Assembly: GCA_903813345.2 (NCBI GenBank)
Contig: CAIIXF020000007.1
Coordinates: forward strand, 30,925,564-30,989,563
Direction of reading: 5' to 3'
Origin: Owenia fusiformis
Lineage: Eukaryota; Annelida; Polychaeta; Sabellida; Oweniidae
Length of the DNA: 64,000 nucleotides
Part shown: positions 7,706 to 63,889 of the stretch, in pieces
Layout of the letters: each line of letters starts with the position of its first letter
How positions within the stretch are numbered: position 1 is the first letter of the stretch
The notes under the pieces: model-generated
What the model saw: only the letters and a program-made list of their open reading frames with translations
Told to the model about the DNA's origin: nothing
The model's database searches: none
Made by a program: the position numbers and the translations under genes

Positions 7706-7870
7706 TACTGCCTTAAAAACAAACAATGTTCATAACTACATTTTGACAATTGAATCAGAGTCTGAAATTGTGTAAATCAGATTGTAAAGAATTATATAAC
7801 TTTTACAATGATGTAACATGTACTTCTGTACTTGTATTGGATTTTGTAAAATAAATAAATACATTTATTT

Positions 7871-10164
7871 TATTTTTAATATTGCTTTTTGGCCTAACCA
7901 CCATATTTTTATGGATTCACTAAAGTATAAATATAACTTATTATGAAGGGGAAGCCTGGTTTTGCAATGAATTCAAAATGAAGAGACCTAATTTGATAAA
8001 AGAAAGTCAATTACATTTTCGGGGAGGGCTGATATCTCCTGCATAATGCACTATTTAGTGTAGTGAATAGTGCATTATGCAGTGCATATTCTGTATTTAG
8101 TATGATCATGGGCCATGGTATGATCAATTAAAAGAAAAGCTTTTGTCTTTGCCCTGACGTGGCCATTCAAATTATTCAAGTGGAAAATACAATATTTTAA
8201 ATTCAGCAGTCTGTATTTATGAAAAGCTGTGGAGCAGATGTGACAAGTGAAGTTGTTATGTGAAAAAGAACAATGGTTGTATCTATAGATGACTGGCACC
8301 TTGAATTATTTTGTCTCTTAACATTGTTTGTTTGACAGAAAATATTCATGAGTAATTGTCGAAGAAAAGTTGTTTTGATTATTTAATATGTTATGTCATA
8401 TCTGATGTTTTATGAATAATTCTTTATAATTTTATGGAAATTAATTTGAATAATAAAAGATGTTTAATCTTTTGTTCTTCAATTTCTCAATTTTCCATAT
8501 ACCTTTTTTAGAAAACGAGATAAGTAGGAAAACATGTTTATTTAGCGTATAAGATTCATGTGGTATTTCAAAATAAAGAAAAACGTTATTTGATTTATTT
8601 AAGTTAAGGTAGTCCATAAGTGGATATTGATATCTTCATGAGGGAGCACTTCAAAAAATATACAGATATCAAATTATCCCATGGAAAATTACAGTGTTGA
8701 ACTACAGTGTACCACATTTATTACAATTGAAAACCAATTAACATCACTTCTGATATTCAATTTACAAATGGTTGGTTACACTCCATGAACTTAATGTTGT
8801 TGTTAACCTTTTGTTTAAATTTGATTTGCTTGTCCAAAACTTAATTTTTTCATGGGCTTCATGTGGTATTTGCTCTGTATCGGGGACCATGGCAGAAGCA
8901 GGTATAGATGTATAAAAGTAAGAAATATGAAGCACCATAGTGTTTTCCTATCATAATTCATAATTTCTCTAGAAACAATTCAAGATAGATCTGCAGAAGT
9001 TTATTTTCAGTGAAATTATGAAATATGAATTTTGATTATCAAATTTGATTCATTAAAGCAGAAAATATGACAAAAACACACTTTCCTTTGCAGACAATTG
9101 TTTGATTATTTATATGCCAATCAAAGCCGTAAATGTAACCACAATCTTTTGTTTGATTTTCTTATGAATATTCACATTTTAATTTGAAACATATGAAAGT
9201 TATTGATGTGAAATAAAAAATGGCAAATATCAGCAACTTTATGAATATATAATTAACAAAACATTTTATAATCTCATCATATATTCATATGAAAAAGTTA
9301 TTTAAATTCAAACCCTCTTGGATTATCTCATAATAGGCATCAGCAGCATTGTCGAAAGACATACGCCTATTTGTAGTTGATTTTTATCACGTACGCAAAT
9401 CAAATAGAGAGGAGGAAGTATTTGAAAGTTGGTGTACTGAACCCGTGCATTTCAAAGCACGATGAGTGGTGGCGAACCTGCCTTTCTGTCCCATGTGGGC
9501 TGGATGGTGTGTTTCATGCTGCTTAACACGGCTTCGACACAAAAGGACAATAATGGGTAAATGAAACATTTTTGACTCTATATTATGCCACATTCGTGTG
9601 GCTTCATTTCTGTTACAGTCTTCAACTGTTTGTGGATTGTGTTTGGCAGTTGGTGTTTGGAGTTTGGCCTCTGTAGCAATTTGCAATAAGATGGTGACAT
9701 TTTGTCATGTAATGCCTAATGTTGTAATGAAACTCAAATCAGAACAACACCGACCTTTTTAGCATTGTTTGAAATGGAAGTGGAAAATCATATAAAGCTT
9801 TGGGTTAGTAGCATGTCATATGTATTATTATGGGTTACTAAATTGATTAAAATGAATAAACTGTACATGTAAAATTGTGGTTTGCAATGAGAACCTTAGA
9901 AAAAACTCTCATGAATATGATTGACTGCCCATAGCGTGTCATGATATACAAGAATATGAGCTCATACCAAAAGTGAAGAAAGGTAATTTTCCTGATTTTA
10001 AGATGGCTGTCAGACTTTGTAAACCCCGCATTGTCTTTCTATCCATGCATCTCTTAATTTACTTTTAAAATCAACTTAATCAACTACATGTATACTATAT
10101 ATACACATGTGTATATTTGAAGCACATGTACTGCATATAATCATTTTCTCCACCCTTCTTAGAG
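7871..10164. other. Intergenic region without recognisable gene
   Basis: About 2.3 kb of AT-rich sequence. No frame of convincing composition, splice-supported exon or RNA gene was seen on either strand. It contains a strong hairpin at 8041-8080 and should hold the promoter, and possibly a 5' exon, of the SCO-spondin-like gene. No core promoter motif is distinctive enough to call. Confidence 0.5.
8041..8080. other. Perfect-arm hairpin (15-bp arms, 10-nt loop)
   Basis: GCATAATGCACTATT is followed ten bases later by its exact reverse complement AATAGTGCATTATGC. It lies in the intergenic region downstream of the E2 gene. Function is unknown; it could be a palindromic transposon remnant. Confidence 0.8.
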
Positions 10165-10507: not shown

Positions 10508-13500
10508 GTAATGTTAAATCAGGCCATTGTGTTTTTAATAATCTTTTATTGCATTTTTAAAATACTGGAAGTTGAAGGCCCACCATCAGTTTTTACCTTA
10601 CAAAACTTTTGAACAATCAGGGTGTTCTATGGGTTCCCCCCCCCCCTGGGCAAACCTAACCACAAGAAAAATACTTTTCTTGAATTTGAAATGAATTATA
10701 TACATTTCTACGTATTATTCAGACAATGACTACTACTTCAATCCTGTCATGTTTACTCAACCCCATCATGTTTCAAACTTTTGTTTTCAGCTGTTTGTGA
10801 CCCTCCCTGTGAGAATGGAGGAACATGTGTGAGCCCCCAAAGCTGTAGCTGTCCATCAGGCTATGGCGGATGGCGATGTGACAATGACCTCTCATGTAAG
10901 TACAAAGCCAGCATCCAAGATGATGTGTTTTCATCTCCAACACTATTAACATTATAAATGAGATTCTGTTACAATTATCTCCCCAACATTTAATTAAGTG
11001 CGTGGGTGCTGCACCCACTTGACATTTTGATAAAAGGCAATGCACCCACCTGAGAATCCGTTTGCAGCCACTTGAAAATGAGAAAAATCACGTAAAATAA
11101 GCATGTTTTTACCAATTTTGGTCTAAATTGTGAAAATAAGAATTTTGAACCCATTTGAGAAAAAATCCTGGAGATGATCACCATCCCAATACATTTCATG
11201 TTGAGATGGCATATGTATCTTTTTCAAAAGTGGAACATGTTTTTCTGTTTTAGTGGCTACAGGAGGGCTTGGATTCTGCTATACTGGTGATACATGCTAT
11301 GGTGAGAAGTCCAGGGCCATCAACAGCTCTGTGCCAGTGGTCACCCAGGTATCATGTTTCCAGTATGATGATGCAGGTTCATGGGGTATAGGGGACCAGG
11401 AGTGTATCACAAGGAGTAAGTTTGCAATGTCTAGTTACAACTCTCCCCTCAGTTTTATTCAGAAAAATTTCTAGAATCATTTGATATTTAATTCCAACAG
11501 GCCTGTAGCCAGGATTTGCCAGGGGGGTTCAGTTTTCAAAAATTTCCAGGGGGGTATACATTTGACAATTTTGGCCCAAATATGGTGAAAATCACTTGAG
11601 AAGTGCTCAAAACGGTGCAAAACTGCATGATTTTGAAAGAATTTTTTGCAAACCTCCCTGGCTTCGGGCCTGTTTCCAAGCTGTTTTTGTGGTAGAATGA
11701 AAGGAATATTTGAAATGCACTGTGTTATGTAAAACATGTTAAAGTTAATAATTCATAATTTATTGAATTTCTTATTTCAGACCAAACAAATGGCATAATA
11801 GGTATGTGGGACATTTGGTTAATTCATTCTATTAAAAGGATTTATTTCAGTTGATGATTATTTCATTTAATTTTGATTCAAAATAATTTGGTTAAGAAAT
11901 CAAAAATCTAGAAACTGAGTATATGGTATTAGAGACTGAGAAATATTAGTGACTGAGTTTCTAAAATTCTATTTCTATCATTTGCCCCAACATGTGCCTT
12001 AAAATTATAGCTAGAGATTGATCTTCTTTATACCACTTCTCATATAATGCACTCTAAAATCTATTGTCATATGTTATAATGTCTTAATTTTTCAGGTTAC
12101 ATCGAGAACACCAACAATCTGAACTATCGCACATGTATATCTTCTGGTCCTCACTACCATAGAACCTTTGATGGAACAGAGTTTGAGTTTGCCGGAACAT
12201 GCGAATATACCTTGTTTGAGTCTGAGACTAACCCTGACCTCTATGTCAGTGTCAGCATGAAAGATTGCGTCTCATTTGCTAACTGTAAAAAGGTTTGTTG
12301 CATTGCATTGTTCTGGCTTTCCATACAACCCTTATCAAAATTACCAGTTTTTATGTCACCACCAAGAAGGGGTGACAAATTGTCACCACCTTTTTCTGAC
12401 TGGTGTTTGGTGACATATTGTCACCATCTTTTTCTGACTGGTGTTTGGGGACATATTATCACCACCTTTTCCTGACTGGTGTTTGGTGACACATATTATC
12501 ACCACATTTTCCTGACTGGTGTTTGGTGACATATTATCACCACCTTTTTCTGACTGGTGTTTGGTGATGGCATTTGCATTTGTATCCATTACAAATTATT
12601 ACATGTTTGTAATTTCAACAATTTGGTTACATTTTGTTATGTATTGTAATATTGTTTTGTCTAACTTTCAGAAAGTAACAATAGTGTTCAACAAGAATGA
12701 AGTATTTGAGGCAGTAGGGGGGAACATTTTCAAGATAGACCCTTTAACTGGTGACCTGTCTGATGCCATAGTGTTGCCCTATGCCAGTGGTAAGTTCCCA
12801 TTAAGTCAAGGAGTTGTTAATCAAATATTTTTATTGTTTACACTAAATTTTTGTTCATCATTTATCTCCTTAAAGCTGATTGTGATGTCTTTCATCAGCT
12901 TGTACATTTGAAATTTGGGTATCTTATGGAATTTTTTCCAGTATTTTTTAAAGGTAAATTATAGGCTTTTGATCAATCATATTGAATTGAGATAACAAAA
13001 AATTGGAATAGATAAATTTAATAATGACCAGATATACATATGTAGTATTCAGATTTAATTAGATCCTTGCTACATTGGATGCATTCAGAAAGCACATATA
13101 TGCTCAGGAATCAGACTGACTGTGAACTTCCATCGCATGGATTAGTACCTTAAACTATGTTACAGATCTGTACATACATGTACATTATAATCATATAACA
13201 CTGTTTATTCCTATCTTTGCTCTGTAAATGTGTCTAATCAGCTTGATTAAGAAGCTCTATTAATGATTGAGTTATTTGTGTCATCACTGATTTTTGTATT
13301 TATTCTAAAAAGGTGGCGTGTCGGGCAAGCAGAAAAATGACTTCATATACTTTGAGTCTCAAGGTCTGCGTGTAAAGTGGTCCATATATGGTAGCAACAC
13401 TGTCAAGGTGACTGTTACTGAGGTGTACAATAAGAACAACAAACTGAGAGGCTTGTGTGGCAACTACGACTCTGATGCTACTAGTGAGTATAGTTACATG

Positions 13501-25500: not shown

Positions 25501-28500
25501 ATTGGCTAGGGGGGTGGTTTTTTTTGGCCCACCCTGTATATATGTACTCAAAGAGCATCATTCTCATATGATGTGGGACAGACAAACTGGTCCTGTTTTT
25601 GAATGTGAAATGAAAAGAATGAACAAAAAAAGTTTCTCATTTTTGACCTGTGTAAACTTAAACTAATAAGATATCCATAAAAGAATTAGTATTTAGATAC
25701 ATTGTGTGGCATTACATGGAATATATTGCTATCAAGAGCCCCACAGGCTTGCACCCTGACTACAAAGGTGCGTGTTAACTGTCTATGTATTCAGGGTGCA
25801 TATTTGTGGATGTTCATATACACCAGTCAGCACCACACTATAGTTGAATCTACCTATAATCAGGAACAGTGTGACAGTGGTACTGTATCATGTACATCTA
25901 TAGTGTATCTCATATTTTGGTGGCTTTGGGGTTGATAACAGCCAGGAATATACAGGGTGTTTCAGATGTATGCACCCCGTCAATGACGGGCCATCATAAA
26001 CTCATACATGTAGCATAGCCACCCTATCATGTTACAGTAAAACCTGCGTATAGTGAACAATTTTTTGCCAAGAAAAAATGTTCACTGTTGGTAGGTGTTC
26101 ACTACAGCAATGATTTGATTTCGCGGCATTTTGCCGTATTATATAAAGAGACCAGCTATTAAAAGAGAGGAGGGAATATTTATTTATTTATCTATTATTT
26201 ATTTATTTATTTAGATATACACTTTTTTAACAGTGGCACTCTTACATTAAGGTGCATGTAATCTAAAAATATCCACAATTCCATGTTGGTTAAAAACAGC
26301 ACATTTTATCAAACTAAAATGAGTCTTAAAAAGAATTAAAACATATTCATATTTGAATAATCAATTTAAATTGAATTTTCTACCCATATTAACCCATGAC
26401 ACTCAAGCGTTAAGTATTTAATTTGTTGTAATGCTATATAGAAACTGACTTATTTTAGACTGACTGTCATCTGAATGGTTCATCCTTTTATTGTCAAATT
26501 TTTATCTCTATATACGGTAATTCTTTTTATCTCATCAAGATGGTCCTTTAAATAGTGGAATTTTTGAGACATTTGAGTCAGTTAAAGGACTTTATTGAAT
26601 TAGTTAAAGGACATGATAGATGCAGTTGATAGTGAAATGATCATGAATTATAATTTTGATCCAATTGTTTTTTTTAAATTGACGGGATGAGAAAAAAGAT
26701 TAAGTTGGGACTTAGCAGATAGAGGTAATAATAGTTAGCTAGATTATCTCCAAGCAATCAATCCCAGACGCATATCCTTTGTAACAAAAACGAAGCTTAT
26801 TAAGAATTATAATTAGTCACACCTGTTTCAATAGAAGAGATCAAGATCTCAAATTGACCTTTTAATTATTTTTGGCAGGTAATATAAACATAAACTGCTT
26901 AACTCTGATAAGGCAGTTGCAGAAAATCCGTGAGAAATCTTATATCTGATTCAATGTTCACTAGAGACAGGATAATTCAATTAATTTTGCCAGGGTTTAG
27001 TGTTCACTGTTCATAGTTGGTAGGCACTTTAACATGGGAGTCAATGGGAGAAAAAGGTTTTGCCGAATAAAAACGTTCACTGTTAATAGGTGTTCACTAG
27101 AGAGATGTGTTCACTAACTCAGGTTTTACTGTATATCTAATTTTGTTCTTCATGGAAAGTTACATAGGAGTGCAGAATTTCAGAATCCAGGGGTGTCCCT
27201 GAAAAAAGATACAAGGTATCAAAGTTTGCAGGTAGGGGGTCAATTAGAGGGTAACTTCTGGTCATTCTTGGACTCAGTCCGGTGATCTGTTCACTTTGTC
27301 TCATACCCATTATAGTGATAGATGTCGCACCAGGGTTCCTGGCCTACTTATAAGCCACTGCATGAATCCTTTCTATATATCTTTGTGCATAACTATCACA
27401 CTCCAAATCTTTTGAAAAAATTCTGAAAGGACGTCAGGAGTGTAATTGAGTCTTAACATGGCAAAGACTGATTGAAATGACAGTAATCCTAATGATAAAG
27501 CTGGAAATGATGAGATAGCATCCAACTTGATTCAAGAATTGCATCAACGTCAAGAAATTCTTATCAAATACTGAAAATGAGACTGCAAACTGAATGTCCT
27601 TGGAAATAGAGATACATGTATATCCCTCTGGATAAACCTATATCCAAAGCCTTCTAGTGCATAACCCTTATGTTTGTACTTGTTGTATAATTTCAGTTGT
27701 GACAGTGGGGGAGACTGTGAGTGTCTATGTACAGCTATTGCCAATTTTGGAGAACACTGTAATAGACTAGGAACACCCGTGAGGTGGAGGTCTCAAGACT
27801 TGTGTCGTAAGTTTATGACTAAACTTGACAATAACTTTGCACTTGTTTCATCCTCTGAATGCAGGGTTCCAGACATCATCCACTATGTTCCTTTCTTCTT
27901 CTTATAAGAAGGAGGTACGAGTTCTGGAGGCCTGTGTTCTGAGGATGCATTTGTTAATGCTTTCTGGTCATATTACTCATATAAAATAACTTAAATAAAT
28001 AACTTAAAGGGGTACTTCTTGTATTCTAAGTATCTTCCAAATACTGAGATAAAGTGTATTTGAGCACATATTTGGCTTTCATTGAAATACTTAAAATATA
28101 TTCCATGTTTACTTGTAGCCATGCAGTGTGACTTTGGACTGGAGTACAAGGCATGTTCGTCACCCTGTGAAGTGACATGTAAAGATATATCCGAAGCGGC
28201 AGAGAGTGAAACCTGTGATAAGACTCTCTGTTTAGAGGGATGTTTCTGTCCAGATGGATTTGCAATGAATGGTAATCCTCACATTGTAGAATTTAAGGCT
28301 AGCAGAGGGTAATCTGTGATTGGCTCACTGAGTGCCAGTCTGGTAATCCTCACATTGTATAATTTAAGGCTAGCAGAGGGTAATCTATGATTGGCTCACT
28401 GAGTGCCAGTCTGGTAATCCTCACATTGTATAATTTAAGGCTAGCAGAGGGTAATCTATGATTGGCTCACTGAGTGCCAGTCTGGTAATCCTCACATTGT

Positions 28501-31500
28501 ATAATTTAAGGCTAGCAGAGGGTTATCTATGATTGGCTCACTGAGTGCCAGTCTGGTAATCCTCACATTGTATAATTTAAGGCTAATAGAGGGTAATCTA
28601 TGATTGGCTCACTGAGTGCCAGTCTGGTAATCCTCACATTGTATAATTTAAGGCTAGCAGAGGGTAATCTATGATAGGCTCACTGAGTGCCAGTCTGGTA
28701 ATCCTCACATTGTATAATTTAAGGCTAGCAGAGGGTAATCTATGATTGGCTCACTGAGTGCCAGTCTGGTAATCCTCACATTGTATAATTTAAGGCTAGC
28801 AGAGGGTAATCTATGATTGGCTCACTGAGTGCCAGTCTGGTAATCCTCACATTGTATAATTTAAGGCTAGCAGAGGGTAATCTGTGATTGGCTCACTGAG
28901 TGCCAGTCTGGTAATCCTCACATTGTATAATTTAAGGCTAATAGAGGGTAATCTATGATTGGCTCACTGAGTGCCAGTCTGGTAATCCTCACATTGTATA
29001 ATTTAAGGCTAGCAGAGGGTAATCTATGATTGGCTCACTGAGTGCCAGTCTGATTCCTATTCTATTCTATTCATGAAGGGAATTTATTCTATGTATGTAT
29101 TCTGTTTGTGTACAGTCATCATGTCTCGTGTAAGGGTCAATTCTGTGAGATAGATCCTTCTTTCAACGGGTACACCAAATTATTATTTATGGAAAAATGT
29201 AGTCTCAAATATAGATAACATGTGACTATACTCCTCAAAGTGTCATGACAATTTTACTGTTTTACTGTATTAAAATATTATTATTCATTGTATTATGTTG
29301 TCTTATTGTTCCAGATGGTGCATGTGTTCCATTGTCTGAGTGTCCCTGTCACTACAAGGGGGTGCCATTTACTAAAGAAACTAACATCACAATTAACTGC
29401 ATGGACTGGTATGTTGATATTTTCCCTTATTTATATTATAGGATATTTTAATCTTCCCAGCAACAAATATATGAAATTATAATATATATAATATGATATG
29501 ATATAATATAATTTATGTTTGTCAAACCTGTTAATCACATAAGGTAGCTATGATGATATTACATAGTGTTCAGAAAGTAATATAATGTTGGGGATATTTA
29601 TGACATCAATAAAAAATCAAACAAAATAAGATACTTTTCAGAATGAACCTATACCCATTCTTTCTCCTGTACCTGGATATACAGCTTATTTATCACATAT
29701 TTTGGTTATAAGTGAGTGCCTAGATGAGAAGATAATATGCATTGCTACTAAACTGCAGCCAATATACAGCTTATGTATGATATATTTTGCTTAATAGTGA
29801 GTGCATAGATGGGAAGATAATATGTAGTGGTGCTAACTGCAGCCAATGTACAGCTTATGTATGATCTATTTTGGTTATAAGTGAGTGCCTAGATGAGAAG
29901 ATAATATGCAGTGGTGCTAACTGCAGCCAATGTACAGCTTATGTATGATATATTTTGCTTAATAGTGAGTGCCTAGATGGGAAGATAATATGCAGTGGTG
30001 CTAACTGCAGCCAATGTACAGCTTATGTATGATATATTTTGCTTAATAGTGAGTACCTAGATGGGAAGATAATATGCAGTGGTGCTTACTGCAGCCAATA
30101 TACAGCTTATGTATGATATATTTTGCTAAATAGTGAGTACCTAGATGGGAAGATAATATGCAGTGGTGCTAACTGCAGCCAATATACAGCTTATGTATGA
30201 TATATTTTGCTTAATAGTGAGTGCATAGATGGGAAGATTATATGCATTTGTGCTAACTGCAGCCAATATACATCTTATGTATGATATATTTTGCTTAATA
30301 GTGAGTGCCTAGATGGGAAGATAATATGCAGTGGTGCTAACTGCAGCCAATGTACAGCTTATGTATAATATATTTTGCTTAATAGTGAATGCCTAGATGG
30401 GAAGATAATATGCAGTGGTGCTAACTGCAGCCAATATACAGCTCATGTATGATATATTTTGCTTAATAGTGAATGCCTAGATGGGAAGATAATATGCAGT
30501 GGTGCTAACTGCAGCCGATATACAGCTTATGTATGATATATTTTGCTTAATAGTGAGTGCATAGATGGGAAGATAATATGCAGTGGTGCTAACTGCAGCC
30601 AATATACAGCTTATGTATAATATATTTTGCTTAATAGTGAGTGCATAGATGGGAAGATTATATGCATTTGTGCTAACTGCAGCCAATATACATCTTATGT
30701 ATGATATATTTTGCTTAATAGTGAGTGCCTAGATGGGAAGATAATATGCAGTGGTGCTAACTGCAGCCAATGTACAGCTTATGTATAATATATTTTGCTT
30801 AATAGTGAATGGCTAGATGGGAAGATAATATGCAGTGGTGCTAACTGCAGCCAATATACAGCTCATGTATGATATATTTTGCTTAATAGTGAATGCCTAA
30901 ATGGGAAGATAATATGCAGTGGTGCTAACTGCTGCTAATATACAGCTTATGTATGATATATTTTGCTTAATAGTGAATGCCTAGATGGGAAGATAATATG
31001 CAGTGGTGCTAACTGCAGCCGATATACAGCTTATGTATGATATATTTTGCTAATAGTGAGTGCCTAGATGGGAAGATAATATGCAGTGGTGCTAACTGCA
31101 GCCGATATACAGCTTATGTATGATATATTTTGCTTAATAGTGAGTGCATAGATGGGAAGATAATATGTAGTGGTGCTAACTGCAGCCAATGTACAGCTTA
31201 TGTATGATATATTTTGGTTATAAGTGAGTGCCTAGATGAGAAGATAATATGCAGTGGTGCTAACTAGAGGTGTGAATTTTTAATCGATCATCGATTAATT
31301 GATCGACACACATTTAATCGAATAAGATTCTTATTACTCAATTAACTGATTCTCAAAAAGTAAATCTTCAATATCCCGCCGCAAGTAAGCTTACGTGACG
31401 TCACTGACTGATTGAGCAGTGAATGTCAGGTTGCCACGCCAAGCTCAAACTACCAAACAAACTAATTACCCTAAGACTGACGCTTACCTGTGACCTTTGT

Positions 31501-34500
31501 TGTTTTTGAGTTTAATACTGATCCAATACATCCCATTGGTTTATTCAGTAGAAGTATGCAATCAAATTCAAGATGAATAGTGGTGTATAATTTGAATGCA
31601 ACCGTCCCAATTTTATTCAGTTCAGAAGCGGTCGAAAAATGGCGACAACACCAGGAAAAAGAAGTTATGTATGGAAATATTTCAACAAAGAAGACGATGA
31701 TCGCGTCAAATGTGTGCTCTGCAATAATAAATACAAATAGTCAAATAGTACATCTACTCTAAGCTACCACTTGTCAAATGCACACGGGGAAACTCCGAAA
31801 ATAAATACTCCGACGTCGCCAATAACTTCATTTCTAGTCAGAAAGTCGGGACCCGGTTTTAAAGTTGCCGCTGAAGATATCACTAATAAATTTGTCAATA
31901 TGATTGTGGTCGACCTTCGTCCAATATCGCTTGTAGAAGGGCGAGGCTTTAATAGAACTAATGGGACATTTACGCCCAGGGTACGATGTGCCGAAGCGCA
32001 AAACAATAACTCGTCGTATGGAATTAGAATTTGAGAAGGGTCAGATATCAGATTGGGGTCGATTAACCGATGATTAATCGATTAATAAGTTTCGTTGATC
32101 GATTAAGTAATGTGCCATCGGTGCACACATCTAGTGCTAACTGCAGCCAATGTACAGCTTATGTATGATATATTTTGCTTAATAGTGAGTGCCTAGATGG
32201 GAAGATAATATGCAGTGGTGCTAACTGCAGCCAATGTACAGCTTATGTATGATATATTTTGCTTAATAGTGAGTGCCTAGATGGGATGATAATATGCAGT
32301 GGTCCTAACTGCAGCCAATATACAGCTTATGTATGATATATTTTGCTAAATAGTGAGTACCTAGATGGGAAGATAATATGCAGTGGTGCTAACTGCAGCC
32401 AATATACAGCTTATGTATGATATATTTTGCTTAATAGTGAGTGCATAGATGGGAAGATTATATGCATTTGTGCTAACTGCACCCAATATACATCTTATGT
32501 ATGATATATTTTGCTTAATAGTGAGTGCCTAGATGGGAAGATAATATGCAGTGGTGCTAACTGCAGCCAATGTACTGCTTATGTATAATATATTTTGCTT
32601 AATAGTGAATACCTAGATGGGAAGATAATATGCAGTGGTGCTAACTGCAGCCAATATACAGCTCATGTATGATATATTTTGCTTAATAGTGAATGCCTAG
32701 ATGGGAAGATAATATGCAGTGGTGCTAACTGCAGCCAATATACAGCTCATGTATGATATATTTTGCTTAATAGTGAATGCCTAGATGGGAAGATAATATG
32801 CAGTGGTGCTAACTGCAGCCGATATACAGCTTATGTATGATATATTTTGCTAATAGTGAGTGCCTAGATGGGAAGATAATATGGAGTGGTGCTAACTGCA
32901 GCCAATGTTCAGCTTATGTGTGATATATTTTGCTTAATAGTGAGTGCCTAGATGGGAAGATAATATGCAGTTGTGCTAACTGCAGCCAATATACAGCTTA
33001 TGTATGATATATTTTGCTTAATAGTGAGTGCCTAGATTGGAAGATAATATGCATTGGTGCTAACTGCAGCCAATATACAGCTTATGTATGATCTATTTTG
33101 CTTAATAGTGAGTGCCTAGATGGGAAGATAATATGCAGTGGTGCTAACTGCTGCTAATATACAGCTTATGTATGATATATTTTGCTTAATAGTGAATGCC
33201 TAGATGGGAAGATAATATGCAGTGGTGCTAACTGCAGCTAATATACAGCTTATGTATGATACATTTTGCTTAATAGTGAGTGCCTAGATGGGAAGATAAT
33301 ATGCAGTGGTGCTAACTGCAGCCAATGTGAAGATGATGAGTTCCAATGTAATGAGACAAAGCAGTGTATACCAAACACATATAGATGTGATGGTGTCAAT
33401 GACTGTAAAGATCTCTCTGATGAATTCGATTGTGGTAAGTGATGTATCAGTAATTCGAACATGACTGTATTCATGCCTTCTACATGTATAAACTTTGAAC
33501 AAGTCAATATTTCTCCCGGGGTATATTCATTAACAATACTCTTGGTAATACGAGTAAAGTGCAACGTCATTACATCGAACCGTTGAAATGGCGGACCATA
33601 ATGAATATTAGAAATATTTTGGTGAGTTTTCATGTTTGAATCGTAATATAGACCTCAGACCAGGTGTTATATTGATGAATAAGCCCCTTAGGGCTAGGCA
33701 TAAAGCTTTCGAACCCCTTAATTCCTTCAGTCTTCAGGGTTTATTTGTCGATATAACACTTGATGTTTGGTCTATATTTCTTGAATAAATGCAGTTAAAC
33801 TAAAAGTGGAACGTCTCCATAAGTAGAAAAAACTATTTTGAGGTACCAGAGCATTATGCTTTCATCATTTGGTAGAAGGTGGCCATTTTGAAAAATGGCT
33901 GCCATTTTTGCTATATACCTTGTTTGTAAATATGCCAGCCATGGCTGTTCGATGGGATTTGCTACGTTTTTGGCATTGCTGTTGTCTAGTATTATATTGT
34001 TTACATTCTACATTTTTACAGCAATGTACGCATGTGATGCCAACAACATGAAATGTGGCAACAATGAATGCATCCACAACATCTATGTGTGTGATGACTT
34101 TGTGTACAATATTGTATATTGTTTACATTCTACATTTGTTACAGCAATGTACGCATGTGATGCCAACAACATGAAATGTGGCAACAATGAATGCATCCAC
34201 AACATCTATGTTTGTGACGACTTTGTGTACAATATTGTATATTGTTTACATTCTACATTTGTTACAGCAATGTACACATGTGATGCCAACAACATGAAAT
34301 GTGGCAACAATGAATATATTCACAACATCTATGTGTGTGATGACTTTGTTTGTAATATTATATTGTTTACATTCTGCATTTGTTACAGCAATGTACGCAT
34401 GTGATGCCAACAACATGAAATGTGGCAACAATGAATGCATCCACAACATCTATGTGTGTGATGACTTTGTGTGTAATATTATATTGTTTACATTCTACAT

Positions 34501-37500
34501 TTGTTACAGCAATGTACGCATGTGATGCCAACAACATGAAATGTGGCAACAATGAATGCATCCACAACATCTATGTGTGTGATGACTTTGTATGTAATAT
34601 TATATTGTTTACATTCTACATTTGTTACAGCAATGTACGCATGTGATGCCAACAACATGAAATGTGGCAACAATGAATGCATCCACAACATCTATGTGTG
34701 TGATGACTTTGTGTACAATATTGTATATTGTTTACATTCTACATTTGTTACAGCAATGTATGCATGTGATGCCAACAACATGAAATGTGGCAACAATGAA
34801 TGCATTCACAACATCTATGTGTGTGATGACTTTGTGTACAATATTGTATATTGTTTACATTCTACATTTGTTACAGCAATGTATGCATGTGATGCCAACA
34901 ACATGAAATGTGGCAACAATGAATGCATCCACAACATCTATGTGTGTGATGACTTTGTGTGTAATATTATATTGTTTACATTCTGCATTTGTTACAGCAA
35001 TGTATGCATGTGATGCCAACAACATGAAATGTGGCAACAATGAATATATTCACAACATCTATGTGTATGATGACTTTGTGTGTAATATTATATTGTTTAC
35101 ATTCTACATTTGTTACAGCAATGTACGCATGTGATGCCAACAACATGAAATGTGGCAACAATGAATATATTCACAACATCTATGTGTATGATGACTTTGT
35201 GTGTAATATTATATTGTTTACATTCTACATTTGTTACAGCAATGTACGCATGTGATGCCAACAACATGAAATGTGGCAACAATGAATGCATCCACAACAT
35301 CTATTTGTGTGATGACTTTGTGTGTAATATTATATTGTTTACATTCTACATTTGTTACAGCAATGTACGCATGTGATGCCAACAACATGAAATGTGGCAA
35401 CAATGAATGCATTCACAACATCTATGTGTGTGATGACTTTGTATGTAATATTATATTGTTTACATTCTACATTTGTTACAGCAATGTATGCATGTGATGC
35501 CAACAACATGAAATGTGGCAACAATGAATATATTCACAACATCTATGTGTATGATGACTTTGTGTGTAATATTATATTGTTTACATTCTACATTTGTTAC
35601 AGCAATGTATGCATGTGATGCCAACAACATGAAATGTGGCAACAATGAATGCATCCACAACATCTATGTGTGTGATGACTTTGTGTGTAATATTATATTA
35701 TTTACATTCTACATTTGTTACAGCAATGTATGCATGTGATGCCAACAACATGAAATGTGGCAACAATGAATGCATCCACAACATCTATGTGTGTGATGAC
35801 TTTGTGTGTAATATTATATTGTTTACATTCTACATTTGTTACAGCAATGTACGCATGTGATGCCAACAACATGAAATGTGGCAACAATGAATGCATCCAC
35901 AACATCTATGTGTGTGATGACTTTGTGTACAATATTGTATATTGTTTACATTCTGCATTTGTTACAGCAATGTACGCATGTGATGCCAACAACATGAAAT
36001 GTGGCAACAATGAATGCATTCACAACATCTATGTATGTGATGACTTTGTGTGTAATATTATAATGTTTACATTCTACATTTGTTACAGCAATGTATGCAT
36101 GTGATGCCAACAACATGAAATGTGGCAACAATGAATGCATCCACAACATCTATGTGTGTGATGACTTTGTGTGTAATATTATATTGTTTACATTCTACAT
36201 TTGTTACAGCAATGTACGCATGTGATGCCAACAACATGAAATGTGGCAACAATGAATGCATCCACAACATCTATGTGTGTGATGACTTTGTGTGTAATAT
36301 TATATTGTTTACATTCTACATTTGTTACAGCAATGTATGCATGTGATGCCAACAACATGAAATGTGGCAACAATGAATGCATCCACAACATCTATGTGTG
36401 TGATGACTTTGTGTACAATATTGTATATTGTTTACATTCTGCATTTGTTACAGCAATGTACGCATGTGATGCCAACAACATGAAATGTGGCAACAATGAA
36501 TGCATCCACAACATCTATGTGTGTGATGACTTTGTGTGTAATATTATATTGTTTACATTCTACATTTGTTACAGCAATGTATGCATGTGATGCCAACAAC
36601 ATGAAATGTGGCAACAATGAATGCATCCACAACATCTATGTGTGTGATGACTTTGTGTGTAATATTATATTGTTTACATTCTACATTTGTTACAGCAATG
36701 TACGCATGTGATGCCAACAACATGAAATGTGGCAACAATGAATGCATCCACAACATCTATGTGTGTGATGACTTTGTGTACAATATTGTATATTGTTTAC
36801 ATTCTGCATTTGTTACAGCAATGTACGCATGTGATGCCAACAACATGAAATGTGGCAACAATGAATGCATTCACAACATCTATGTATGTGATGACTTTGT
36901 GTGTAATATTATAATGTTTACATTCTACATTTGTTACAGCAATGTATGCATGTGATGCCAACAACATGAAATGTGGCAACAATGAATGCATCCACAACAT
37001 CTATGTGTGTGATGACTTTGTGTGTAATATTATATTGTTTACATTCTACATTTGTTACAGCAATGTATGCATGTGATGCCAACAACATGAAATGAGGCAA
37101 CAATGAATGCATTCACAACATCTATGTGTGTGATGACTTTGTGTGTAATATTACATTGTTTACATTCTGCATTTGTTACAGCAATGTATGCATGTGATGC
37201 CAACAACATGAAATGTGGCAACAATGAATGCATTCACAACATCTACGTGTGTGATGACTTTGTGTGTAATATTATATTGTTTACATTCTGCATTTGTTAC
37301 AGCAATGTACGCATGTGATGCCAACAACATGAAATGTGGCAACAATGAATGCATCCACAACATTTATGTGTGTGATGACTTTGTGTGTAATATTATATTG
37401 TTTACATTCTGCATTTGTTACAGCAATGTATGCATGTGATGCCAACAACATGAAATGTGGCAACAATGAATGCATTCACAACATCTATGTGTGTGATGAC

Positions 37501-40500
37501 TTTGTTTGTAATATTACATTATTTACATTCTGCATTTGTTACAGCAATGTACGCATGTGATGCCAACAACATGAAATGTGGCAACAATGAATGCATTCAT
37601 GTGTGATGACTTTGTGTGCAATATTATATTGTTTACATTCTGCATTTGTTACAGCAATGTACGCATGTGATGCCAACAACATGAAATGTGGCAACAATGA
37701 ATGCATTCACAACATCTATGAGTGTGATGACTTTGTGTGTAATATCATATTGTTTACATTCTACATTTGTTACAGCAATGTACGCATGTGATGCCAACAA
37801 CATGAAATGTGGCAACAATGAATGCATCCACAACATCTATGTGTGTGATGACTTTGTGTGTAATATTATATTGTTTACATTCTGTTCTGCATTTGTTACA
37901 GCAATGTATGCATGTGATGCCAACAACATGAAATGTGGCAACAATGAATGCATTCACAACATCTATGTGTGTGATGACTTTGTGTGTAATATTACATTGT
38001 TTACATTCTGCATTTGTTACAGCAATGTATGCATGTGATGCCAACAACATGAAATGTGGCAACAATGAATGCATTCACAACATCTACGTGTGTGATGACT
38101 TTGCTGATTGTACAGATGGAGCAGATGAGGATCCTGTATGGTGTGGTCAGTAGCATTTATATATTCATTTTTCTTTGATATATATTTATTTAATGCAAAT
38201 AACTAAATAGAATATATCTCTTATCACCAAAAGCATTACTGGAGCGAGACATTTATACATAATAGTTCTCTATCAATAAATGAGCCTGGCCATAGGAAAA
38301 CCGGTCTTATCACAAAAATTAGAATTGTGCTTCAGAGCCAAAAAGTGCCTAAGATTAAGAGGAAAATGTGCTAAATTCAAATCCGACTTTTTGGTCTATA
38401 TAATAAATTATATGCAAGGAAAAATTGTTATGACATTAGCCATGGCTCATTTGAAAGGTCTCTTTGTGCTTTCTAAGATAAACAAAAAATCAGAATATTG
38501 AAAAAATCTGTGATAAGACCCCTTTTCCTGTGGCCTGGCTCAAATGACACCTTCAAAGTTATGATAATGGAAACATTACAAAGGATTGATCATATATTCA
38601 TGGCCTACTTGGGTGTAGAAATGCAAGAATATTGTTATAGGATAGCTTAAAAAGATCTCAGCAAAAAAGTTTTCTCAAAAATAGTGTGGCCTACATGACA
38701 TCATAGCATTCATCTTGCGATGTCATTCTATATAATCGAAAATATAAAATGAAATTATATGGTCCAAGTAATCTAACTTACTTAATGTTTCCATTAATGT
38801 TGAAAATAAATTATGTTTAACAATATAAAGAGAGGTAATGGGCCATCTAAAAATCATACCTCCCCCCTATCTTCAAAAGTGATGGGAAATTCAAATATCC
38901 GGTTTTTCAATAATGTGTGAAACAACTTCTTAGTCATCATGTGAAATAGTATTTGAATGATAAAAAACTATTTTCGAAAATTGCATGCATTTCATAAACA
39001 CCTATCAGAAATAAAGGGTTCAAGTTTCTCCACACTTTACATAGGTTTTGTTACTGTAATTGTAAATATACCTTATAGACAACATGTATAACTCTTGTTA
39101 TATATTCTCAAAGAAACTTGAAATTTACTCTCATATTTGTAAATTCATTTAGGTCAACTGAAACAATGTAGCTCAGGTGAATTTCGTTGTTCCAATGGGG
39201 AATGCATTCCTGCCCTGTTTGTTTGTGATGGTGACAGCAAAGACTGTGGCACTGACGATAACTCGGATGAGGCAAATTGCACAGGTATAATTAATATTTT
39301 ATTTTTTATATTTTCTGATTGTTTTTATGTTCATTACAGTTAAACCTCTCTGAGGGAGCACCTTTCTGTACGGAACATTTCTCTACAAGGATCAGTTTTC
39401 AAAAACCAAGTATTTGTCAATTGACTTACATGTCAATGAAAGGAACACTTGTTTATTGGGCCAGTATAGAGAGTGTTTCTTGTACACCCTTTTTTATGTC
39501 ACCACCAAAAGTGGTGACATATTGTTATGGTCTCCGTTTTTTTGCGACGGCGGTTGGTGGTTGGCGTCCGGCGTCCGGCGTCTGGCGTCCGGCGTCTGTA
39601 ACAATATCTTACAACTTCCTATAACTTAACAAATACTGTTTAGACTGACTTCAATTTTTTTCTAAATCATCTACATGTTCTCAGAAGTTCAAATCTGACT
39701 TTAGATTTGACATTTGACCTTCAATGACCTTCTCAAGGTCAAAAAGGTCTTTTTTCAACTTGCTTCACATTGACTAAATTTTTTTTCAAAATCATCTACA
39801 TGTTCTCAGAAATTCAAATCTGACTTTAGATTTGACATTTGACCTTCAAATCTGACTTTAGATTTGACATTTGACCTTCAATGACCTTCTCAAGGTCAAA
39901 AAAGGTCAAAAAGGTCTGTTTTCAACTTGCTTCAAATTGACTAAATTTTTTTTTCAAAATCATCTACATGTTCTCAGAAATTCAAATCTGACTTAAGATT
40001 TGACATTTGACCTTCAATGACCTTCTCAAGGTCAAAAAAGGTCAAAAAGGTCTGTTTTCAACTTGCTTCAAATTGACTAAAAAAAATTTTCAAAATCATC
40101 TATGTATTCTCAGAAATTCAAATCTGACTTTAGATTTGACTTAAGATTTGACATTTGACCTTCAATGACCTTCTTAAAGTCAAAAAAGGTCAAAAAGGTC
40201 TTTTTTCAACTTGCTTCAAATTGACTAAATTTTTTTTTTAAATCATCTACATGTTCTCAGAAATTCAAATCTGACTTTAGATTTGACATTTGACCTTCAA
40301 TGACCTTCTAAATGTCAAAAAAGGTCAAAATGGTATTTTTTCATCTTGCTTCAAATTGACTAAATTTTTTATTCAAAATCATCTACATGTTCTCAGAAAT
40401 TCAAATATGACTTTAGATTTGACTTTAGATTTGACATTTGACCTTCAGTGACCTTCTCAAGGTCAAAAAAGGTCAAAAAGGTATTTTTTCAACTTGCTTC

Positions 40501-43500
40501 AAATTGACTAATTTTTTTTTTCAAAATCATCTACATGTTCTCAGAAATTCAAATCTGAATTTAGATTTGACATTTGACCTTTAATGACCTTCTCAAGGTC
40601 AAAAAAGGTCAAAAAGGTCTGTTTTCAACTTGCTTCAAATTGACCAAATTTTTTTTTCAAATTCATCTACATCTTTTCAGAAGTTCAAATTTGACTTAAC
40701 AAGTTCTCAGAAGTTCAAATCTGACTTTAAATTTGACTTTTGACCTTCAATGACCTTCTCAAGGTCAAAAAGGTCTTTTTTCAACTTGCTTCAAATTGAC
40801 TAATTGTTTTTCAAAATCATCTACATGTTCTCAGAAGTTCAAATCTGACTTTAGATTTGACATTTGACCTTCAATGACCTTGAAAAGGTCAAAAAGGTCT
40901 TTTTTCAACTTGCTTCAAAGGACGATTCTCGGTTTGGAGAACGAAGTGCATCAATCTAAATGAGCATTATCCCTGCTTCGGACAAATTTGATTTTTTTTA
41001 CATAATATAGATTTGAGTGTCTTCTTTTGAATAGTCATAATTTAATTTGGGTAATATTTCTAGATTTTTCGCCAAAAAATATTAGCGCAGTACACTGATG
41101 AACTTCTTTCCCCAAATCGAGACTTGTATTTTATTGAATCGGTCTAATTGAGCGTTATCCCTGCTTCAGACCAATTTGTTATTTTTACATCTTGTAGATT
41201 TAAATGTCCTCTTTTGAATATTCATAGTTTAATTTGGGTAATATTTCTATATTTTTCATGAAAAAATTATTAGCCCAGGAGACTGTTCTCCAAACCGAGA
41301 ATCGTCCTTTACTTAATTTTTTTTTCAAAATCATCTACATGTTCTCAGAAGTTCAAATCTGACTTTACATTTGACATTTGACCTTCGATGACCTTCTCAA
41401 TGTCAAAAAAAGTCAAAGAGGTATTTTTTCAACTTGCTTCAAATTGACGCATTTTTTTTTCAAAATCATCTACATGTTCTAAGAAGTTCAAATCAAACCT
41501 TCTTAAGGTCAAAAGGTATTTTCCAACTTGTTTTAAATTGACCAAATTGTTTTAGGTGGTGACATTTTGTCATGTTAATGCCTTGTACATATTACATTAT
41601 AAACAGAATTAGAGGTTTTGTAAAAACCTTTCATTTATTATAATGTCTTTCCATTTTATTTCATTATAGACACATTGAAGAGCAACGGCTATTAAGAATT
41701 ATTCTCTTTTCAGAGTGTATGATTGGCTCGTTCAAGTGTGACACTGGTTTATGCATTGATATTCGCAAGAAGTGTGATTTCCATGATGACTGTGGAGATG
41801 GTTCTGACGAGAGAGGCTGCCGTAAGTTCACTCATTTTCTTTTTATATAAGTGAACTTTTTAAAAACTGATTTCAACCGCTCTTGTCTCAAGAATAGAGG
41901 TTTGAAATAAAAAGGGTTATAGTTATTCTATAGATAAATCCTATGTTTGCTAAAGGGTTTGCCAGATCATATCAGTTTTGGAGATTTCTGTGGATACCAA
42001 AATTGATTGTACATGGTGGTCCAAAAATTGAAAACCCGTTTTGATACGAAAATGACATAATTTGTATTATGGACGCTGTTTGACAGATATTATAATAAAT
42101 TTGAACTTATTATATACTAAATTAATGATAATTAAATTCCCCATCCACTGGTATATAACATAACATGTTTTCATCAATAAAATCAATGTTAATTTTTGAA
42201 ATATGAGTGTCCCATTTTTTGGACCACCCTGTATATTATAAGCAATGTTTGGGTAGAGCAACACCCTTCTCAAAAGTTTATATCGTTTGTCTAGACAGCT
42301 TTTTTGAATGACTGTCATTGTATAAGGTAGTCAACTGAATATGCTCGAAACTATCCAGATCCATGGAATGTATATACCAAACAATAGCATGTATCTTGTT
42401 TATCAACATTAGTGCAGGAATTAGGTTATCCATTTTAATGAATTAAGTTGAAAGCAATTGTGCAGGGAACTTGATGGACCAGTATGTTGCTCTTGAACCC
42501 CTTAGCCTTATCTGTTTATCTCATTTAGAATTTTCATTTTAGCCACTACATCTGCTCGTCCAACACTATCTACTGAAGGTATTTTAAACTTTTCATTTAC
42601 CTTTAATTAACTTATAAGTCTGCTAAGTTCTACTAGCCACTAAATCATGTGTCACTAAATCATGTGTCACTAAGTGTGTCATCATTTTGTTGGACACACT
42701 CTTCACTTTTCTTTTTTCTGATTGCAACCCATGCCATCCTCACCATTATCAGATATACAGAAAAAATCGTTGTAATATATTTAAATATATGTGAAATTAT
42801 GGATTTTAACTAATATGAGACACCATCTCACAAATCTTTTAGCCAAAAATATTTTTGGATCAATTTCAAATTGCAGAAGTAAGTACACTGAGGCCCTTTA
42901 GTACACCAAAGGGTCTTGCCTGTGTTACCAAAGATGCTATTCAAGACCCAGTTGCAGTTCCTGATGACTTTGTACAACTGGATTCAAGCCTATTGCATAG
43001 CCCACTTAGCAACCTCCGCAACCAAGGAGTGAAATTCTCAGTCTACACAAGTGATCCATTTAACATATCTATTAAATTCGATGACAATGCAAACTTTATG
43101 CCTGTGGAGATGGGAGATATAATTCTGACTGGGGCTGAGGGAATCGACTCAATGACTGTGTATTTGGTACAATTGGGAGACTATGTCATCAAACGGGACC
43201 TAACTATACTAGAAGTAAGTCTGCTAAAAATATGTTGACTTTACCATCTTAAAATATCAGCAACCCTATGTTCATTGTTGCATATTCTGACTTTTTGTGT
43301 CATCATCGTTGTAATGATAAATGTTTTACCAACTGTTCACTGACCAATTATAAATTTATGTATGGTTTTCAACAGCATATGCCAAATAAAAACTTAATTT
43401 TGAAGTACCAAAGGAATACCACTTTCAGAGGATATATGGCACCTTTGTATTTTGCTTCTGAGTTTATTTCTAATAATAAATTGTATTTTGAAGGAGGGAT

Positions 43501-46500
43501 CCACTACTATAATGGATTCATTTGCCTCAGAAGCTATCTCAGTCATCATAGAAATAACACCCAATGACAACGTGGAAGAAGTTGCCATGGCATCACTGCA
43601 AATAATTGCCTGTTTGGAGAAAGGTGTGTTTGTTTTTAGATTTTTATAATTGATCTATGTTTATTTTATAAATATGTTGTCACAAGTACTATTTTAACTT
43701 TTTGCATATTAGTTTGGTTTAGAGCTACATAGACATATCATATCTTTAGAAATTACTCTGTGTGCCCATGTCTTCCATTCTCAATTTCCTATGTTTACAC
43801 AGCCAATATAATTCGACGCCGTTTCGGCATCAAAAAAATTCGGCACGGTTCCGGCACCAAAACCTTTCGACACCAAAATTTGCTACCGGACTAGTCAGTC
43901 CATTTGGTGCCGAAACGGCACTGAAATTTGGCACCGAAACGGCATCGTAAATCAGATTGCATTTTGGGGGTGTATTCACGATAATCTACACGTACAAACA
44001 GAATGAAGTTTAATTGGTTTAAATTTTCAGCCCCTTGTTACCTGTCAAATATAAACCAGCATACGGGGACAACCTTTTCTCCTGATATTGGACCGTACGT
44101 TTCATCAAGAAGGGGGATTGGGCTTCCTGGAAACAGCCTCACCATGCATTTCCCATCTAATCTGTATAAAGAAGTTGTCACTACATATTTACTTTATGTG
44201 AAAGTGACGAACGCTCATAGTGTCACGGTTATGGCTGCTGATAAATTCGGCAACAGTTTAAGTTCTCGGGTAAGGCATTAACTGTTGATCATGTTATGAT
44301 GTACATTTTTTTAAGTTCCTTAATAATATACTATTGTATTTATGTAAGCTAAAACAAATCCTTAAATCAATATACAAAGTTAGGCTTTCCCCGCATTGGT
44401 ATCCATGTCAAAGAACTAAGATTATTGGGATCCAAGCTAGATGATGACAACGGTGCCATGACAACAACTTTTTAGTCAACACACAGCTCCAGAATCGAAA
44501 AGATTATATCTGCTTTTGTTTAATTTGTGATATTTTTATACATACTGATATCTACATGTATGATATTTCATTATTTACGATGTGAGATGAATCAAAATGA
44601 GTATGAATCTTGTAGGTATTCACAGAACGAGGTCGCCAGCGTGGTATTAAAGCAAGAAAGTGGGGAAGGAAATTACTAGAAGAAGACGAAGGACCAATAT
44701 TAGTCTATCAACGATTTGATGGAATAAGGAATATGAAGATCATTGATTTAACGATTATACATGACGACTCTACATCAGAGCCATCTATGGTGTCTCGCTT
44801 GACCTGTAAAGTATGTTTTGAAGGTAAGGTATTTGAAAATGATTTATTCTATCTTTTATGCCGTTAATTCGGTACCCTTCCCATGGTACACAAAAGCCAG
44901 GGATTGGAAATATCATTACAGTGATATTGAATATGTTTATTATATGATTATTTAACAAAAAAATGTTGTTTTTAAGTTTCCAAAGTTTATCTATTATTAA
45001 TATATTAAAGGTTCCAAAATAGTGAATATAATAGCAGATCTTCCAAAGCAGTGTACACAAATGTATTTTAGGAAGCTGAAAATATCCCAGCCTCCAGCAT
45101 GCAACAAGTATTACATTGAATATATTGAATATGTGTCCATATTATTTCAGCTATGTCTACCCCCTCGACACATATCTGTAGTGCTGGGAAGTTCAAATGT
45201 ACCAGTGAACAAAAGAAATGCGCTGTCAAATGTGATGGTATATTGGAGTGTGCTGATGGAGAGGATGAAACGGATGAATGTAAAGGTAATACATTGTTAA
45301 TGTAAAGGTAATACATTGTTAATGTAAAGGTAATACATTGTTAATGAAAAGGTAATACATTGTTAATGTAAAGGTAATACATTGCCAATGTAAAGGTAAT
45401 ACATTGTTATTGTAAAGGTAATACATTGTCAATGAAAAGGTAATACATTGTCAATTCAAAGGTAATACATTGTTAATGTAGAGGTAATAGTCGTTTCAAT
45501 CTTTTTTTAATTCATGTCAATGTAAAGGTAATACATTTTAATGTAAATGTAATTACATTGTCAATGTAAAGGTAATACTTGTCAATGTAAAGGTAAAACA
45601 TTCTAATGTAATGGTAATACATGTCAATGTGAATGTAATACATGTCATTGTAAAGGTAATACATGTCAGTGTGAAGGTAATACATCGTTAATGTAAATTT
45701 GATATATTCCAATGTAATGGTAATACTTCAGTAATTTCTAATTCTCTAGTAAGCCATTAAGGCTTTAGATAAGGTACTTCAACATATCAACTCTTGACAG
45801 TATACTATTTGTTTGAATTCAATGACTGTTAGACCACATGTAAAATGATTGTCATTCCTAGTCTTATGTGGAGCTCGCAAACTTCTATTGACCATATTCT
45901 AGTACGATCCTGTTATATAGTGTATTATTTTATGCAATTTGACCTACTTTCACAACTTGAGCTATTTTTTAAAATGACCATCAAAATACAAATGAAATAT
46001 GATGAAACTTAGGAATTCCAAAAGAGGCTTTTAAAAAGTATACCTTCAGGCATATAATTGTTGTCAATTTGTGAATGATGAAATGAATTAGCATTCGCAT
46101 TGTGAGCCCAAGGGATGATGCAATTCTTATGTCACCACCAGAAGTGATGACATATTGTTATGGTCTCCAACTTTTTGGTGGCAGCAATTTGTGTTCAGCT
46201 TTTGCGTCTGTAACAAATGGCAGGTGGTGACTTTTTGCATGTAAATTGCTTGTTACTTAACACAATGTGTGTAATACTTCAACAAGTGGGCAACTTCTTC
46301 TGATGTAACAATGTGAAAATATATACCTGTCACTCGGTGCTATTAATGAAAATGAACAATTTAATGAGATAAATACCTCTCTTAATCTTTAATTTCAGAA
46401 ACTGTCACACCAACTAATCAAACAATTCCCGAGCCTTGTGTGACATGTGTGAACAGTAATGGGGAGAATGTGTGTGTACCTGTGGATACAGTCTGTCAGG

Positions 46501-63504: not shown

Positions 63505-63662
63505 CAATTTAGGAATGTTGCAAAAATGTTCTATTATATATCATTTTGCTGCAAATGAAATTATCCTTAAAATGGTATATCATTGTTGGTGTACCTGTTA
63601 AAAAATAAATATTTATCAGGAATACTGGCTAGGGGGGGGGGGCATTTTTGGCCCACCCTGTA
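63505..63662. mobile_element. Truncated end of the 24022-family Tc1/mariner element
   Basis: The last 150 bp match the right TIR of 24022-25538 (ATATATCATTTTGCTGCAAA, TATTTATCAGGAATACTGGC) and end GGCCCACCCTGTA with a G-run. The opposite end is absent. It joins directly onto the reverse-transcriptase fragment. Confidence 0.8.
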
Positions 63663-63889
63663 AGTGAAAGTTTATTTGTTTCAGGCCATGCTTGTATTGT
63701 TTTAAGTTCTCGATTCAGAGTAGTTTGTAGGTCCACTAATGTTTTTCCATTGATCAAGATATTTTTGTCATCTGCAAATAGGACAAATAGAAGATCATGT
63801 GAGGTCAAATAAATGTCATTAATATACAAGATGAAAAACAAAGGTCCTAAAACCGAACCCTGGGAGACACCACAATGAATTGTTTATAT
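63663..63889 (-). pseudogene. Non-LTR retrotransposon reverse-transcriptase fragment
   Basis: The minus strand reads CGVSQGSVLGPLFFILYIND followed by LLFVLFADDKNILI. SQGSVLGPLLF...YIND and FADD are the diagnostic motifs of LINE-type reverse transcriptases; FADD holds the catalytic Asp pair. It is cut off on the C-terminal side by the DNA-transposon end at 63662 and by a stop upstream of CGVS, so it is a dead fragment. Confidence 0.85.

Follow-up and report, generated by a model that had tools for sequence, protein, structure and literature searches.

Mirage-type tandem arrays carrying exon edges in a SCO-spondin-like gene and other loci of the annelid Owenia fusiformis

Mirages and their relatives

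Minisatellite-like tandem duplications of an intron-exon boundary have been named mirages in amphioxus, where they were described in the globin genes BflGb6 and BflGb9 and in Adh3 (PMC3087553), with TnC and PGBD5 (imperfect repeats) reported as further cases (PMC3902484). According to the accessible portions of these two reports, a mirage has many units with AG/GT signals, unit size differs by locus, the units evolve in concert except at the edges of the array, splicing is regular and length is unstable, and mirages may be general among cephalochordates and may give rise to new introns; in BflGb6, haplotypes with 6 and 3 units are recorded (PMC3087553). Here, arrays of this kind are described in a 64,000-nucleotide stretch of the genome of the annelid Owenia fusiformis (GCA_903813345.2, contig CAIIXF020000007.1, positions 30,925,564 to 30,989,563; referred to as the window), in which a SCO-spondin-like gene carries four tandem arrays between 28271 and 45727, and in other loci of the same genome. 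An earlier note on this DNA had called them the most unexpected pattern in the window. The arrays are real and recurrent, but the structure is not new in kind, being already named and covered by several amphioxus reports; O. fusiformis is a new host for it.

In potato RdRp (PMC4974935) and in Drosophila (PMC2891723), as far as the available text of those reports goes, tandem duplication that includes splice signals led to a new intron or exon. The O. fusiformis arrays likewise take in splice signals, but the number of exons appears to be unchanged and it is an existing intron that grows. No report of mirages in annelids was found in a literature search that covered titles and the openings of abstracts and few subscription papers, and the nearest relatives outside amphioxus in that search were these intron-gain cases. 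A human minisatellite, reportedly in the gene IFI6 (6-16), is said to yield multiple splice donor sites. Two of the arrays described below, 71D and 22D, resemble it in having units that contain a splice donor; the repeated donors of IFI6 are, going by the title of the report (NAR 1995, 23:1854), used in the transcript, whereas 71D and 22D are known from DNA sequence.

Structure of the four arrays and their host gene

The arrays and the exons that they adjoin are listed below, with arrays labelled by unit length and D (donor-type) or A (acceptor-type), and with a slash at the splice point.

28119–28271, plus strand: exon with a TIL domain, its donor being the first copy of 71D (Pfam TIL, 2e-9 on the open frame and 4.7e-11 when joined to the following exons)
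28270–29052, plus strand: 71D, 71-bp donor-type array with TG/GTAATC in each unit, 11.0 copies, 97% match, 2 exonic bases (Tandem Repeats Finder, TRF, and sequence reading)
29677–33326, plus strand: 84A, 84-bp acceptor-type array (TTAATAG/TGAGTGCC), 33 copies, 50 exonic bases (TRF and sequence reading)
31265–32133, strand unspecified: hAT-like transposable element inside 84A, with an 8-bp target duplication, GTGCTAAC, at 31257–31264 and 32134–32141
33277–33434, plus strand: LDLRa exon with its acceptor within the last 84-bp unit (LDLRa match at 33326–33433, acceptor TTAATAG/TGAG, exon joining)
33983–38103, plus strand: 121A, 121-bp acceptor-type array (TTGTTACAG/CAATG), 34 copies, 95% match, 81 exonic bases of an LDLRa exon (TRF, copies listed)
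38023–38145, plus strand: LDLRa exon with its acceptor within the last 121-bp unit (LDLRa search, splice-site scoring, exon joining)
45151–45285, plus strand: LDLRa-like exon whose donor, AAAG/GTAATA, opens 22D (LDLRa search, splice-site scoring)
45277–45726, plus strand: 22D, 22-bp donor-type array, 20.7 copies, 80% match, 9 exonic bases, the most decayed of the four (TRF and sequence reading)

All four arrays are intronic, with the splice site of the adjoining exon carried in each unit and an exon-side overlap of 2 bp (28270–28271), 50 bp (33277–33326), 81 bp (38023–38103) or 9 bp (45277–45285). The earlier note had given periods of 71, 84, 121 and 22 bp, the adjoining splice site in every unit, and two arrays at donors and two at acceptors, all of which agreed with TRF and sequence reading. 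As in the amphioxus mirages, each of these four arrays carries the boundary of its adjoining exon (4/4), and both 5' and 3' exon boundaries are involved. The signals also recur from unit to unit: the 11 copies of 71D lie at exact 71-bp spacing with TGGTAATCC intact in all 11, AG is kept in 33/33 copies of 84A and in 34/34 copies of 121A (where the acceptor reads GTTACAG/CAATG), and the exact motif GGTAATAC is found at 15 places in the about 21 copies of 22D, some copies having lost the donor motif. Unlike the amphioxus cases in the accessible text, the host is an annelid and the arrays reach 33–34 copies and 3–4 kb, against 6 and 3 units in BflGb6. Splicing and length instability are reported there for amphioxus, and the O. 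fusiformis arrays are known from one assembled haplotype, in which a search of the assembly placed 121A at a single position.

The array 84A was returned by TRF in two parts, 29677–31265 (18.9 copies) and 32134–33326 (14.2 copies), at 93–94% match. As the hAT-like element, of which there are 72 matching pieces genome-wide including this copy (best other copy 97%), splits the array and is flanked by its 8-bp target duplication, 84A is older than the insertion. A clean target duplication inside an array also argues against collapse or expansion of repeats during assembly, as do the copy-specific variants borne by the units and the like arrays at other loci, and we consider an assembly artefact extremely improbable.

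Pfam matches to 4 of 10 submitted open frames identified VWD, TIL and spondin-type TSP1 domains in the gene around the arrays, and LDLRa domains were added by a profile search of the genome and by a hidden Markov model (HMM) search, which fits the SCO-spondin-like label that the gene had been given. The open frame of the first exon by itself covers only positions 1–47 of the 55 in the TIL profile, and joining 28119–28271, 29315–29408, 33277–33434 and 38023–38145 extends the match to 1–55. As this join completes the TIL domain and also yields two LDLRa stretches, three of the four array boundaries are probably well placed, and a coherent protein would need no new exon between 28119 and 38145. 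The fourth boundary, the donor at 45285, is based on an LDLRa match that ends at 45281. The exon edges previously proposed at 28271, 33276, 38022 and 45285 are therefore correct, three being backed by domain continuity and the last by the end of that match.

We think it probable that these are mirage-type minisatellites, that is, ordinary tandem duplications that happen to include an exon edge, are tolerated in the intron and have grown by recombination with the real exon edge. A local tandem duplication would, by chance, have a unit that spans an exon-intron boundary. The authentic boundary would stay at the exon-side end of the array, in the first copy at donors and the last copy at acceptors, and the remaining copies would turn into intron. 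The arrays would be tolerated because this boundary remains in place and all else is intronic. Growth and homogenisation would follow from unequal exchange that also involves the end unit, namely the real exon edge; unequal exchange, not some other process, presumably drives the growth, and copy number is likely to vary between individuals.

Five of the nine arrays in the window lie off splice sites by reading (6511, 7228, 12371, 17746 and 39845–40899). The last is a 136-bp array inside the interval 28271–45727, not splice-anchored and near a motif of the GGTGACATATTG type; similar motifs were seen by eye at 12371–12567 and near 46135. An open frame resembling a fragment of a non-LTR (long terminal repeat) reverse transcriptase was noticed by eye at 63632–63883 on the minus strand, and an Rfam scan of the whole window gave 0 matches. 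In the genome at large, C-terminal domains of annelid haemoglobin linkers gave 3 matches in a cluster (best E 5e-7), the best of which is closest, though weakly, to linker chains in the PDB (E 0.0025; linkers are 5 of the 8 hits listed). COX1 gave no match, nor did GFP or mollusc haemocyanin, two negatives of little weight because the GFP controls also stayed silent. An amphioxus host, considered on account of the mirages, was set aside partly on the linker matches and the GFP result.

Chance, a possible edge bias and recurrence in other loci

The earlier note had argued that chance placement would rarely hit a splice site four times in 17 kb. However, more than half of those 17 kb consists of repeat copies and the transposon, and with a single unit left of every array between 28,000 and 45,800, the stretch shrinks to 8,176 bp and contains 24 exon edges, or one per 341 bp, so that the length used was the wrong one. 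The coincidence is nevertheless uncommon under random placement, as all four units fell on an edge with P 0.0010 (free placement) or 0.0017 (exon-interior placements rejected), and at least four of five did so with P = 0.016 when the fifth, unanchored array was included, although these values are post hoc for a region chosen for being striking. Some exon ends in the simulation were off by 1–2 bases, with no effect on the outcome.

As the window region had been picked for this very feature, other loci were examined. The comparison sample was 27 loci of 10 kb (270 kb), labelled here with L and a number, which were hand-picked from the list of LDLRa matches and of which several are adjacent. They contain 52 arrays outside the window (53 TRF rows, two of which were merged), and by reading 11 of these carry a single exon edge, a lower bound because flanks were inspected for only about 20 of the 52, the consensus unit being inspected for all. 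Six of the 11 were confirmed by HMM-located LDLRa edges. Four are donor-type and seven acceptor-type, compared with two of each in the window. They are as follows.

L009, 6504: 44-bp donor array
L010, 8382, into L017: 104-bp donor array, 31 copies
L012, 4219: 131-bp donor array
L012, 8075: 75-bp acceptor array
L016, 6348: 95-bp acceptor array
L030, 3138–3614: 96-bp acceptor array, with all five units open in frame
L030, 9267: 126-bp acceptor array, cut by the locus end, with the authentic exon beyond the locus
L032, 2746: 117-bp acceptor array, 24 copies
L034, 6939: 93-bp acceptor array, 2 copies
L038, 5578: 66-bp acceptor array
L040, 1638, minus strand: donor array of about 122 bp, its exon placed by an open frame that has no domain match

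The pattern thus recurs in other genes. LDLRa-like exons are among those that border arrays elsewhere; others are presumably of MAM, CUB and YWTD types, as we name them from their translations. Two arrays in an LDLRa-rich region, at L003 4822–5619 (289 bp) and 7606–8472 (291 bp), have units that take in an entire LDLRa exon together with its two splice sites; they were counted apart from the single-edge arrays, and arrays with no, one or two edges may form one continuum of tandem duplication. In the 96-bp array of L030, upstream acceptors would yield a longer protein in frame. A 63-bp (21-codon) array at L040 3669–4265 looks coding by eye and is Thr-rich on the minus strand.

The overlap of arrays with splice sites was then compared with a random expectation, a check proposed in the earlier note and run here on the 27 LDLRa-rich loci. 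With an HMM constructed from 132 seeds, 273 LDLRa hits were obtained, 190 with an acceptor and 214 with a donor above score thresholds, resulting in 403 distinct LDLRa exon edges in the window and loci together, and 331 outside the window once arrays were collapsed. Considering all arrays outside the window, 10 of the 331 edges were covered (5.2 expected, P 0.040), 4 of these 10 belonging to the two whole-exon arrays. Restricting the arrays to a match of 90% or more and about 3 copies left 5 edges covered (1.8 expected, P 0.035), as did a limit of 93% (1.6 expected, P 0.023), and restricting them to periods of 20–150 left 6 (3.9 expected, P 0.20). At 60–700 bp into the intron, coverage was 0–4 of 304–330 for strict arrays and 4–9 for all arrays. 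There is therefore a modest excess over random, of 1.5–3 fold, with a P value that moves between 0.02 and 0.2 with the definition of an array, and the coverage of edges exceeds that of intron interior by a few times at most, on marginal evidence.

An excess of that size neither establishes nor rules out that amplification favours exon edges by some mechanism, such as R-loops, composition steps or nucleosome borders at exons, and we hold such a bias to be unlikely. It would account for the anchoring of all four flagged arrays in one gene interval, for the excess of covered edges among high-identity arrays outside the window, and for the drop in their coverage to 1–2 of 322–330 at 60–300 bp into the intron. 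However, the arrays with periods of 20–150 show little excess, at 400 bp into introns the arrays cover 4, 6 or 9 of 317 positions, depending on how they are defined, close to the 5, 6 or 10 of 331 at edges, unit lengths range from 22 to 131 bp, and unanchored arrays make up the majority in a window that was itself chosen as striking. Of the explanations offered in the earlier note, tolerance of redundant splice sites holds up, and there is little good support for a strong bias towards exon edges.

Use of the copies, coding changes and a proposed exchange with the exon

Computed translation showed that use of another copy in place of the authentic one brings in-frame stops in all four window arrays. 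The spliceosome presumably uses the end copy, and that view, drawn from DNA sequence, is one of several points at which the mirage-type reading is open to objection. The donors at 28272 and 45286, in 71D and 22D, are without G at +5 and fall at the 2.1 and 1.1 percentiles of 189 LDLRa donors of this genome, a rank that is exaggerated because the score used to choose those donors favours consensus. As pure tolerance does not predict weak donors, they weigh against it. The acceptor of 84A is similarly weak (3.6 percentile of references that were picked for strength), and such sites, together with the splice dinucleotides kept in every acceptor copy of 84A and 121A, are what would be seen if selection retained redundant splice sites to strengthen weak ones or to permit alternative splice-site use. 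Yet 121A has an unremarkable acceptor (40th percentile), consensus-like donors are seen by eye in the 104-, 131- and 44-bp arrays, the alternative copies bring premature stops, and only 15 of about 21 copies of 22D keep the exact donor motif, all of which makes selection of this kind improbable.

Further objections came from coding changes, which were scored after five of the 15 single-edge arrays (71D, 22D, 44D, 93A and the L040 array) had been excluded; 9 of the remaining 10 had such changes. The exon-derived parts contained 32 synonymous, 42 non-synonymous and 1 stop change where 18.0, 54.8 and 2.3 were expected (P 0.0003), and had fewer variants per base than the intron-derived parts (0.119 vs 0.207, P 0.00025). 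For internal copies only (8 arrays with enough copies), the corresponding figures were 23, 38 and 1 where 14.7, 45.6 and 1.7 were expected (P 0.013), and 0.123 vs 0.150 variants per base (P 0.28); outside the window they were 20, 19 and 0 where 10.4, 27.5 and 1.1 were expected (P 0.0009). Purely dead intronic copies would give no synonymous excess. The excess comes mainly from 121A, 117A, 96A and 131D (20 synonymous vs 6.9 expected) and is absent from 84A, 95A, 126A and 66A (11 vs 10.7), a split by array that was made after the result was known. The most diverged exon parts, in 84A and 66A, are neutral, with 4 synonymous changes vs 4.2 expected and 5 vs 3.9, respectively; for 84A the full count was 4 synonymous, 18 non-synonymous and 0 stops, vs 4.2, 16.9 and 0.9. 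End-of-unit gaps inflate the deletion counts, and one of six 126A copies was dropped as it was below 80% identity. Constraint on the exon parts of the 104-bp array (1 vs 16 alleles) was considered and rejected; its 31 copies vary in one short intronic stretch, and the array was kept in the totals with its 1 synonymous change.

The synonymous excess could mean that some units are at times coding. The 96-bp array of L030 suggests that some arrays may be partly coding, and the 93-bp array of L034 is open too. The unit length is a multiple of 3 in 7 of 9 acceptor-type arrays (P 0.008), though in 0 of 6 donor-type (P 0.09), among the 15 single-edge arrays, a small sample whose lengths were taken from TRF periods, with a period of 105 in the second TRF row for the L040 array. 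Exon-derived copies that are still coding, as alternative or cassette exons or as read-through repeats that expand the protein, nevertheless strike us as very improbable, given the in-frame stops in all four window arrays, the stop in one copy of 121A and 11-bp deletion in another, and the neutrality of 84A. Phase-compatible 84-nt mini-exons, open in most copies of 121A, were judged unlikely because their cryptic donors, at −7.9, score lower than any of 189 reference donors (minimum −3.8), and because the intron left over would be 37 bp, too short when the smallest of 122 introns is 69.

Our own explanation, which goes beyond what is demonstrated, is that the excess reflects exchange with the working exon, in which the variants that are tolerated are synonymous ones. 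Copies do share variants with the authentic unit. Copy 27 of 121A is identical to it, and copies 28–33 differ from it by 2–6. In the L032 117-bp array, a variant is common to the authentic unit, the six units nearest the authentic end and units 1, 2, 11 and 12, and those six units differ from the authentic one by 1–2 bases, against 1–5 elsewhere. In 84A, the first copy and the copy beside the transposon show 12 differences vs a median of 3 for the 33 copies, and the last copy of 104D has 10 differences to the authentic copy where the others have 2–5. However, exchange should leave the edges of an array less homogenised, and this is clear in 84A and 104D but not evident in 121A or 95A. Copy identity was independent of inter-copy distance in the four arrays tested.

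Going further than the mirage-type reading, the arrays may be live partners of the exon, with young fragments constrained through exchange or occasional coding, and with intron growth, splice-site turnover and multiplication of exons and domains as one process. We put this forward as a speculative and rather doubtful extension; if true, the process would take in the whole-exon arrays of L003 and would operate across a protostome genome. Of all these results, the synonymous excess and the apparent exchange with the authentic unit most deserve further work. The presence of many independent arrays in one genome would provide a test bed for how the spliceosome chooses among 30 nearly identical sites, and the same genome would be suited to asking whether arrays seed introns or exons. 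As mirages in the accessible literature come from cephalochordates only, many annelid genes with them would show that the process is not specific to chordates.

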